From assembly GCA_008477525.1 (NCBI GenBank), contig SPDT01000006.1:3623501-3687500 (forward strand): a stretch of DNA of 64,000 bases. The letters are read 5' to 3'. The notes below the pieces were generated by a model. It did not search any database. It was not told the origin of the DNA and saw only the letters and a program-made list of their open reading frames with translations. Of this stretch, positions 25,002 to 28,892 are shown piece by piece; the stretch's first letter is position 1; each line of letters begins with the position of its first letter. Position numbers and translations under genes: made by a program. This DNA comes from Hypomyces perniciosus (Eukaryota; Ascomycota; Sordariomycetes; Hypocreales; Hypocreaceae).

Positions 25002-25638
25002 GATTGCATCGCACGACTCGCCGACTCCTTGCAAATGGACGGTGTTGTCGTTGCCGAGGTTTTGTGAATGTCGCAAAACCTAGGAAGCCGATCAGACGTC
25101 AACGTATCTTTTTTTATGCGAGAGGCAGACAAGGCCAGGTAACTTAAAACTAACATGGCAGGGGGGCAGCCCACTGCTTTAAGTTGCTTGTGAGGATTGG
25201 GTTAGTACTCCATACTTACTGTATTATAGGTACGGAGTACTTCGTACCTTGAAGGTAACATGCTAGCAGCTCCAAACGTTACCCTAGAGTTTTACCTCTA
25301 GTGACGGCGGCGACGCAGTAACAGTGTAAAATTATAAATAATTGATTTATTTATGATTTACAAAACTATTCTTTTGCCCCTTGTTTTTTTAGTACTATCT
25401 GGCTGAGAGACCATTCATGCGTAGAATAGAGAGACATGGCGATAAAAACTGTGATATCAAGATAGTATTCTTCTGTGCTAGCTTCTAATCCAAAAGGATC
25501 CGGATAAAATCATAATACTATGTGTATGTACTACTAATACTTGAAGGTAAGATGTAACATTAAAACCATATAGCAAAAACCCTACTGCATTTCTATCAAA
25601 ACTGACATAAAAAAAGTGCAAAAAAAGAAAAAAAAGAG
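25002..25638. other. AT-rich spacer with palindromic element
   Basis: Holds the ERJ5 promoter and the downstream flank of the tRNA gene. A TACGGAGTAC copy followed by TTCGTACC is at 25231-25248. No gene seen. Confidence 0.6.
25620..25635 (-). terminator. poly(T) terminator of the tRNA gene
   Basis: On the minus strand, directly after the tRNA 3' end, there is T8, one C, then T7. This is a strong RNA polymerase III terminator and indicates that the whole interrupted tRNA is transcribed as one unit. Confidence 0.8.
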
Positions 25639-25765
25639 TAGCAATTGCACGTTTCGATCGTGCGACTATGAAATTTGTTAGATTGTGCCGTTTCGAAGGG
25701 ATGACCTGAGAGGTGCTTACCCTCCGGGTTATGAGCCCGGCGCGCTTCCACTGCGCCAAATTGCT
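25639..25765 (-). tRNA. initiator tRNA-Met(CAT) interrupted in the variable region by a 55-nt insert
   Basis: Reading the minus strand from 25765, the gene has a 7-bp acceptor stem AGCAATT/AATTGCT, a D arm GCGC-AGTGGAA-GCGC, an anticodon arm CCGGG-CTCATAA-CCCGG, a variable loop AGGTC, a T arm GCACG-ATCGAAA-CGTGC and discriminator A. All stems pair perfectly once 25720-25666 is removed, leaving 72 nt. Initiator hallmarks are all present: A1-T72 pair, three G-C pairs in the anticodon stem, and A54/A60 in the T loop. An A box (TGGCGCAGTGG, 25758-25748) and a B box (GATCGAAAC, 25659-25651) are intact. The insert starts GTAAGC, has CTAAC 11 nt before its end and ends CATAG, like a small mRNA intron. 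Canonical tRNA introns sit after position 37, not here. Confidence 0.85.
25666..25720 (-). other. intron-like insert in initiator tRNA gene
   Basis: 55 nt between AGG and TC of the variable loop. It has the 5' end GTAAGC, a CTAAC branch-like box and a TAG 3' end. It also contains TTCGAAAC (25697-25690) preceded by AGGTC, resembling a decayed T arm. Confidence 0.7.
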
Positions 25766-26108: not shown

Positions 26109-28892
26109 CTACTTGCGGTTCGCTCGCTTCCTGGCCTTTGTTTCCCTCTCGTACGCATTTGCCTCTCGCCCCTCCTCGTTCTGAATCTCTGAAATGAGCC
26201 TCTTGTACTTCTTCTCGTACGCCTCGTCCTTGGCCTTCTTGATACGCAAATTCTCCCTTGCCATGAAATTTGCATCCTTTCTCAGCTCTCTCATAGCACC
26301 CTTGCGCTCCTTCTTGTGCTCGGCCTTCAGCTTGGCCAACTCGGCCCTTTCGCGGTCGGGGTCGTAATGCTTGTCTGGATCGAAGGTTTCTTCGAACTTG
26401 GGTATGTAGGTCTTGATTGCCAGTGGTCGATGGCTGTGTAGCTGCACAGGTCGGCGTGAAAGCTGTGCAATCCTGGACATGCGCTTCAGCTTGTCCTCGA
26501 GCTTCTGTACTCGGTCACTAAGCGCCGAGGGCAGATGTGTTCGACATCCTTGTTTGTTCAAATGACCTAGCACATTAAGAACTTGGTCAAAGGTTTCCAA
26601 AAACGAAGTTTTTCCTGTCCATAAATCTGCAGCTGCGTCGAGGATTTGAACAGAAGTATCCAACAGAGAAACCTTGAGAGCCTTTACTTCCTCTTTCGAT
26701 TCTCTCGGTAAGCAGTCGAAAAAGTTCAAGCGCCTCGGCTCAACCTCCTTAGACTTCTGAGAGCGACTTCCCGCTGGGGGCTCATGCACTGGAAAGTTGC
26801 CTAGTTGTGCCGAGGGCGCCACAGGCGCAAGAGAGCAGAGTGTGTTCAATGTGAAATTCATCACCTCTGGGACATATCTCTTCGACAACTGCTGATACTG
26901 TAGAGAGAGGATCGATAAATAAGCCCCTGTAGCATAGTCTGACAATCCCTGCGGCACTCTCTGGCCAAGGTATCGAGTAATCGTGAGCATCGAGGGAGTG
27001 ACAACCTGGTGGAAATGATCTGATGTTGGGAATATCGTCCCAACTGCTGTAAGAAGGATCAGGTCTGAGGGCTCCAGTGCCACCGGACGCGTCTGGCCCA
27101 TCTCTCCGAGGTGATGACGGAATCTCTTAGCAATTTCAATGGGAAATGTCTTCGAAAGAGAGTGAATATGACGAATGAGACTCTCCAAAACCAAGAATGA
27201 TGGTGATGTCTCGGCATCCCAAGGAGAGGCCACAAAGTCGACCAATGCCATGGAAAAGTTTGCTAGTCTCTCCTTATTCTTGCTATCAAGCCTTGGGTGG
27301 TACAGCACTCGAATTCGCTGAACAATCTTCGGTAGATTCGTGTGAGGATAAGGCTTCGTGATGGATACAAATTCCGTGCATGACTGAGGACAAGGAAACG
27401 TAAACGGTAACCCATGCTCATCATTTTTCTCAAGAGCCGATGCCTTTGCTGAAGAATCTGCTTGGAAGATGGGATTTCTGGCTTCCTCTTCATTTAAGAG
27501 TCCCTTTGTGAATTCGTCGTCGTCGTTGTCTTCCTCCTCTTCGCTTGCTGCATCATCGTCTTCCTCCTCATCAAATTCCTCATCGCTTTCCACGAGTTCC
27601 AAGTCAGATCCGCTGGCTACCAGATCATCCTCTATGATGAAGTCGTCTTCGTCGTCAAAACCCAACTCTGTCGCTGTGGGCCGGGTTTTGATGCCATGGC
27701 CAAGGCCAAAGTCTTCATCATCCTCGGCAGTCTCCATCCCGTCCGGTCTATTGTTGTCCTCCTTGTCCTCTGCTTTATCATCTTCATCGCTGTCTGACAC
27801 TTCCTCGCCCATCATGCGTTTCTGACGCTTCTCTTCCAGCTTTTTAAGCCTATTGGACTCTTCCTCTGCCTTTTCTTCTTCAGTTTTGGTACGATCAGAG
27901 GGTTGCGCCCTTTTGTCCTGAGCTAAGCGCTTGACCTGGACATCGAAATTCTTGTCAAAGGCGTCCCTATCAATGCCTGCGATACTGGGCAATGGAGCAG
28001 CATCACTCTCCTGACGTTTCGAGCCATTGAGTCCCGATGATAGGAGAAGCTGGACGCTTTGGAGCTCTTTATCAAGTTGCACCCGAAGGTCATCGTCATT
28101 CTCCTTAGCCGCCTGTCGCTCATATTTGTGAAGCTTTGACTTTGCAATAATTTCTTCCATCACCTCCTTCTTTGTCTTCTTGCGCTCGGGTTGCCCATCC
28201 TCATCATTGTCGGCTGAAGCGATGGCACGAAGGCGCTTAAGTCGCTGCTGTTCACGCGTAGAAGCGTCGCTATCATAATCCGCCTCAAGATCATCCTCCT
28301 GGAAGTCGTCCACCGGCTCATCATCATCAAATTCCAAAGACCTCCCCATGTGTGTCAAACCTTCCATGGGATCGTCATCCTCCAAGTCGAACATGGAGCT
28401 CTTTTTGTGCGCTCTCTGCTTTTCCATGGCAAATCTTTCCAACATCTTCTCCTCTGGCGTCATAGTGGGGTCGTTTTCACCGAATCGCCGATCTGTAATG
28501 CCTCCAACTTTGTTCCGACGTTGCATATCTACCAGAAGTGTTTGCTTGCGCTATAGGCCGATCATTAGAACGAGCTTAAAGTAACTGGAGAGACGCCATA
28601 CCTTCTCCTCGCTGGCGGCCTTTGCAAGGCCTGGACGGCCCTTGATCGCAGCATTTCCCGTTGGCCGATTGGTCGTCACCTCGAATTTGGGCCCTCGCGC
28701 AGCGTGTTTGAGGTCGAATGGATTGAATTGCTCTCGAATGCCTTCCAAAACCACCCCTCTCTGCAAGCGTTTCTCATTGCGGGCGGGTTCATCTTGCGCC
28801 AACTTGCGTCGCTGTTTCTTGGACTTTTGGGGACCCGTTATACCTTGCTCCCTCAACGATGCTTTTAAGCGCTTGAGCTGGGAACCGGCCAT
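26109..28892 (-). CDS. NOP14: nucleolar 40S assembly factor Nop14
   Basis: Two exons, 28892-28602 and 28550-26109, give 910 residues; the intron has a GTATGG donor and ends TATAG. The start MAGSQLKRLKASLREQGITG is followed by FNPFDLKHAARGPKFEV, then GGITDRRFGENDPTMTPEEK, all diagnostic for Nop14. Long acidic tracts (Asp/Glu-rich, about residues 360-455) precede a helical domain, and the C-terminus is strongly basic (KKYKRLISEIQNEEGREANA, ending KARKRANRK). Nop14 is a component of the U3 small-subunit processome required for 18S rRNA maturation and 40S export. Length matches the family. Confidence 0.93.

Follow-up and report, generated by a model that had tools for sequence, protein, structure and literature searches.

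The window analysed here is a stretch of 64,000 nucleotides of the Hypomyces perniciosus genome (contig SPDT01000006.1). On its minus strand lies an initiator tRNA-Met (iMet) gene whose variable loop is interrupted by an insert resembling an mRNA intron, and whose parts, in window coordinates, are as follows:

25765-25639, minus strand: initiator tRNA-Met gene; the exons, once joined, give a perfect 72-nt tRNA
25721-25765, minus strand: 5′ exon with the acceptor 5′ strand, D arm, anticodon arm (CTCATAA) and variable-loop bases AGG, placed from the sequence, Rfam and the joined form
25748-25758, minus strand: A box TGGCGCAGTGG of the Pol III internal promoter
25666-25720, minus strand: 55-nt mRNA-type intron in the variable loop, at a position common to all five genomic copies found
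25715-25720, minus strand: 5′ splice site GTAAGC, invariant in five of five copies
25690-25698, minus strand: degenerate B-box-like CTTCGAAAC within the intron; a strict GTTCGANNC is found here in copies C3b and C5 only
25677-25681, minus strand: branch-site motif CTAAC, with the predicted branch adenosine at 25678, lying 11 nt short of the 3′ end of the intron; invariant in five of five copies
25666-25668, minus strand: 3′ splice site TAG, which is TAG in copy C5 too and CAG in the other three copies
25639-25665, minus strand: 3′ exon with variable-loop bases TC, the T arm (ATCGAAA), acceptor 3′ strand and discriminator A
25651-25659, minus strand: exon B box GATCGAAAC, 99 nt from the start of the A box (44 in the mature sequence)
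25628-25635, minus strand: run of eight T, Pol III terminator-like, just downstream of the gene

Initiator tRNAs are marked out by an A1-T72 pair, three G-C pairs next to the anticodon loop, and adenines at positions 54 and 60. The original prediction, made from the letters of the window, was that excision of 25720-25666 would leave a perfect 72-nt initiator, and this was borne out. In the joined 72-mer, whose length counts the discriminator A, the acceptor, D, anticodon and T stems are Watson-Crick throughout, the first pair is A-T, three G-C pairs adjoin the anticodon loop CTCATAA, and the T loop reads ATCGAAA; A54, A60, the CAT anticodon and the intact stems are those of a cytosolic initiator tRNA-Met. 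The use of A54 as an initiator feature is also described in PMC3978253. ARAGORN names the joined form of all five genomic copies tRNA-Met(CAT). Given the unmodified window it reports no tRNA, and the five unspliced copies are called Ser, Val, Arg, nothing and nothing; the interrupted structure would account for the failure of a standard tRNA finder to detect these genes or to name them correctly. The Rfam tRNA model spans 25639-25765 with a score of 50.2 bits (gathering threshold 29) and is the sole Rfam match at the gathering threshold within the window. In minimum-energy folds the five-pair anticodon stem is absent from the unspliced window RNA and from the joined 72-mer alike; since the joined form also lacks a full cloverleaf, the fold of the unspliced RNA is uninformative.

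In the assembly of 44.0 Mb in 23 contigs, the pattern CNGGGCTCATAACCCNG occurs at five loci:

C3:236566, initiator copy C3a
C3:2821609, initiator copy C3b
C4:5188487, initiator copy C4
C5:140138, initiator copy C5
C23:3649224, the window copy

Across these copies the exons are identical at 71 of 71 bases and at the A that follows. In every copy an insert of 54-55 nt separates the third and fourth of the five variable-loop bases. A second insert, of 55 nt, is present in C3a and C5 after base 25 of the mature sequence, a site that is presumably 26/27 in tRNA numbering, and leaves these two genes with a middle exon of only 20 nt. All five copies are followed within 25 nt by a T run of at least 7 T, and the flanks of the dispersed loci are largely different. 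The variable-loop introns are 75-98% identical in pairwise comparison, so the copies do not stem from one recent duplication, although those of C5 and the window copy differ at a single base. The two-intron state cuts across the paralogue groups: C3a pairs with C4 by its flanks and variable-loop intron and C5 pairs with the window copy by its variable-loop intron, yet intron 1 is common to C3a and C5. We read this distribution as a probable outcome of gene conversion or of repeated intron loss.

The original prediction had raised the questions of whether uninterrupted initiator genes elsewhere carry the function and whether this copy is decaying. Were the five copies decaying or silent, the working initiator would have to be encoded by an intact gene that escaped the searches or is absent from the assembly. 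Assemblies can omit sequence, and the genome tRNA search scored 63 of 2316 candidates, with the window gene itself absent from its list; a search built on such candidates and on patterns could also let a strongly divergent copy escape. Nevertheless, BLAST of the whole window gene against the genome returned only the five loci, and the uninterrupted form, searched for across the genome as a pattern running from anticodon to T arm, gave no match at up to three mismatches. A loose anticodon-arm pattern added to the five just three one-mismatch matches, the surroundings of which, judged by eye, do not have the look of a tRNA. Five of five copies are interrupted, and their exons are identical and their splice signals invariant while the intron interiors have partly diverged, which speaks against decay. 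An intact gene hidden from view is thus very unlikely to be the source of the initiator.

All seven inserts in the five genes have GT...AG ends at exactly the junction that restores the tRNA. The variable-loop inserts start with GTAAGCACC, have the 5′ site GTAAGC, carry CTAAC 10-11 nt before the end, and close with CAG in three copies and TAG in two. Both second inserts start with GTATGT, contain GCTAAC followed by 9 nt, and end in CAG. The 5′ sites (GTAAGC in five, GTATGT in two) and the branch motif CTAAC at 9-11 nt from the end are those of U2-type introns; the GTAAGC start, the CTAAC 11 nt from the end and the TAG end first noted for the window insert are confirmed on the minus strand. In a set of 2022 Fusarium introns the 5′ site is mostly GTANGT, a CTRAY branch is found in 91%, and the 3′ site is Y93A100G100|R59 (PMC5677156). 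The iMet introns are followed by T or C, which by this measure is the rarer situation. Closer to hand, the neighbouring NOP14 gene has an mRNA intron of 51 nt, read by eye as GTATGG...CTAAT...TAG, which resembles the inserts in size and signals.

Such signals seldom arise by chance. When random 55-mers with the pooled base composition of the introns were placed at the window junction, 10 in 2,000,000 satisfied a loose rule that asked for GTRHGY, a CTRAY that stops 5-24 nt short of the end, and YAG, with the register an allowed one. Seven of seven inserts are built in this way, though the copies share ancestry. In the alignment of the five variable-loop introns none of the 13 signal columns varies, against 20 of the 42 remaining ones (Fisher p = 0.001), a conservation measured among paralogues, which may exchange sequence. 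Shared ancestry explains part of it, because 22 of the 42 non-signal columns are invariant too. Among these is AGGTC (25707-25703 in the window), which is no splice signal and which resembles the variable loop before the B box; the U6 introns of this genome have a similar arrangement (TGGTCG...GTTCGAACC). The string AGGTC...TCGAAACG is common to the variable-loop intron and the 3′ exon in some copies. The idea that the introns arose when the T arm of the tRNA itself was duplicated in tandem is not supported: local alignments against 5000 dinucleotide shuffles gave p values from 0.026 to 0.80 for the seven introns.

Canonical introns of nuclear tRNA genes separate bases 37 and 38, just on the 3′ side of the anticodon, and follow no GT-AG rule. 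Those of the present genome, in genes named tRNA-Thr, Val, Ala and Ser by ARAGORN, share with the iMet inserts their setting in nuclear tRNA genes, but they sit at the anticodon and lack GT-AG, whereas the inserts are found in the variable loop and at 26/27. The inserts might still be unusually placed tRNA introns, removed by the Sen endonuclease and joined by the Trl1 ligase, with GT-AG and CTAAC coincidental. Ectopic tRNA introns with a bulge-helix-bulge (BHB) do exist in Cyanidioschyzon, nucleomorphs and archaea; like the iMet inserts they lie off the anticodon, an archaeal one in the variable loop, and many of the nucleomorph examples have no defined BHB (PMC3978253). They are the substrates of a BHB-recognising endonuclease, however, and no convincing BHB was found at the iMet junctions with a simple scorer.

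This scorer is home-made and crude, and its yardstick is six ordinary tRNA introns of the same genome (Thr, Thr, Val, Ala, Ser, Val), which score 9-13 when the highest of eight positions is taken, a position that is not in every case the annotated one. The predicted iMet junctions, neighbouring registers included, score 4-8, values reached by about 16-90% of random position pairs. If the positions are allowed to slide by up to 4 nt, the iMet introns reach 7-10 at the best of nine positions, and two variable-loop introns then score 10, matching some ordinary introns. The totals therefore overlap under sliding, but the outer helix does not, with 0-1 bp in the iMet introns vs 2-5 bp in the six ordinary ones. 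The poor fit to the Sen route that was originally claimed for the window insert is thus upheld by the off-anticodon positions, the short outer helix and the low junction scores. With full spliceosomal signals in all seven inserts, and a chance frequency of 10 in 2,000,000 for a single one, we regard removal by Sen and Trl1 as unlikely. Nor did any group I or group II intron model match in the window at the Rfam gathering threshold. An initiator tRNA gene interrupted by a self-splicing ribozyme appears as a reference title in PMC3978253; that initiator is interrupted likewise, but the iMet inserts, at 54-55 nt, are too short to be ribozymes of this kind.

The introns also alter the spacing of the promoter boxes. 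The A and B boxes of the mature initiator sequence are 44 nt apart, and the distance from the A box to the exon B box is 98-99 nt in the one-intron genes and 153-154 nt in the two-intron genes. Since yeast tRNA genes cover a range of 31-93 nt (PMC5356446, PMC4937561), these exon B boxes lie outside it. In both two-intron copies, C3a and C5, intron 1 contains a strict B box, GTTCGAATC, exactly 44 nt from the A box; in 100,000 shuffles of intron 1 a strict B box arose in 0.27% of trials, and in 0.011% at the exact spacing of 44. Comparison of intron 1 between C3a and C5 gives 3 matches in 10 for bases 7-16 and 38 in 39 for bases 17-55, which suggests either that the B box, branch motif and 3′ splice site were kept while the 5′ part drifted, or that a conversion tract ends there. 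A genome search with the B-box and branch pattern of intron 1 returned the two known copies and two matches with 3 mismatches; as the reversed control also gave 1 match, no further carriers are claimed.

For the variable-loop intron the picture is different. A strict B box is found in only two of five copies (C3b, at a spacing of 60; C5, as a further box at 115), so that it is not generally needed in this intron, and one-intron genes would have to work at the exon A-B distance of 98-99 nt. In C4 and the window copy a U6-type intronic B box at a functional spacing is absent as a sequence feature. The longest T run in any insert is 3, and the inserts are therefore compatible with transcription by Pol III.

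The mRNA-type introns of fungal U6 genes had been put forward as a precedent for introns in Pol III genes, and this can be extended to the same genome, where both U6 genes found (C3:1700161 and C4:5851670; 47 of 2649 candidates scored) have an mRNA-type intron just before ACAGAGA. These introns, of 60 and 58 nt, read GTAAGT...CTGAC or CTAAC...CAG or TAG, and each holds a B box, GTTCGAACC; the A-like TGGT that precedes it by 46-47 nt is at position 16. Because Rfam runs its U6 model into the intron, the U6 5′ exon can readily be put in the wrong place. In fission yeast, U6 is known to have a spliced intron of the mRNA type, thought to derive from reverse splicing (PMC10484740), and a 1990 title cited in the same article places a B-box match within the fission-yeast U6 intron. 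Given both U6 genes with such introns, it is very likely that the spliceosome already handles Pol III transcripts in this fungus.

The iMet inserts are of the same mRNA type as the U6 introns of S. pombe and other fungi, including the two described here, but differ in that the host RNA is a tRNA encoded by five dispersed genes with two intron positions, whereas U6 is itself part of the spliceosome. The spliceosomal introns of fungal U3 snoRNA are a second parallel in a small structured RNA, although U3 is no tRNA. According to a 2017 paper, frequent interruption by an intron was known for no small structured RNAs other than U3 and U6 (PMC5832005). In the present genome there are five U3 matches and one SRP RNA match of full model length; the search for RNase P RNA (RF00009) was negative, as were its controls.

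There is a further possibility, that the introns are spliced in Pol II read-through transcripts of neighbouring genes and have no part in tRNA production. The NOP14 frame does end at 26109, on the same strand and 343 nt upstream of the window copy. Such read-through would have to recur at five dispersed loci with largely different flanks, and there is no reason why an intron in an untranslated region should restore the exact tRNA, as happens in all five copies, each followed by a T run. This makes read-through splicing extremely unlikely.

We consider it highly probable, from the sequence features set out above, that all the initiator genes found carry U2-type GT-AG introns, in the variable loop in five of five and also at 26/27 in two, and that these genes are transcribed by Pol III and their introns excised by the spliceosome. 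We infer, that is, that the iMet precursors are spliced at the RNA level, and by the spliceosome. TFIIIC would bind the A box together with an intronic or exon B box, and Pol III would make a precursor extending to the T run. In the two-intron copies the B box used by TFIIIC would be that of intron 1, at the normal 44-nt distance, much like the intronic B box of U6. U1 and U2 would recognise GTAAGC or GTATGT, and CTAAC, after which the spliceosome would excise the intron or introns as lariats and join the exons; the joined tRNA would then receive its normal end processing.

If iMet precursors are spliced in this way, the supply of initiator tRNA would depend on splicing. More tentatively, it is conceivable that this lineage obtains its initiator only by way of the spliceosome, so that initiation is splicing-dependent, that some of the introns act as portable Pol III promoters, and that they arose by reverse splicing into a spliceosome-associated RNA, as proposed for U6; the odds may lie somewhat against this fuller scheme. 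An association with the endogenous spliceosome has been reported for human initiator tRNA, in contrast to elongator tRNA (PMC8890436), and this offers a lead as to why the initiator in particular might carry introns. The parallel with U6 makes an origin by reverse splicing testable across the Hypocreales.

An essential tRNA of which all known genes are spliceosome-dependent would break the rule that the spliceosome does not splice tRNA. It would also tie translation initiation to splicing capacity, and would mean that Pol III tRNA precursors whose internal exon measures just 20 nt can serve as substrates of the spliceosome. Neither the class of intron nor its occurrence in U6 is new; a tRNA as an obligate substrate would be, as far as the literature searched extends. 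In the open-licence literature that was searched, we found no account of a nuclear tRNA with a spliceosomal intron.

The scan for relatives covered the 5′ exon in viral contigs (53 stretches) and genome contigs (at least 116 stretches), the 5′ splice junction (10 stretches) and the anticodon arm in viral contigs (at least 120 stretches); among the matches listed, of which 170 and 130 were inspected by script, none was a eukaryotic initiator gene by its motifs. Two neighbouring reading frames in the window had no Pfam match above the cut-off. The NOP14 protein shares 78% identity with its Cladobotryum mycophilum counterpart and 73-76% with the Trichoderma proteins among the best matches, which points to a fungus of the Hypocreales, probably of the Hypocreaceae.

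Three further observations came from the genome-wide tRNA matches. On contig C17 they recur at about 75.56 kb, and the tRNAs within the first 17 kb of C8 are spaced in the same way; judging by tRNA positions only, C17 looks like a doubled mitochondrial genome, and the start of C8 may be a mitochondrial insertion or a misjoin. At C2:2701-14391 five equal-scoring tRNA matches follow one another at intervals of about 2,905 nt and may belong to a tandem array that holds a tRNA-like element.
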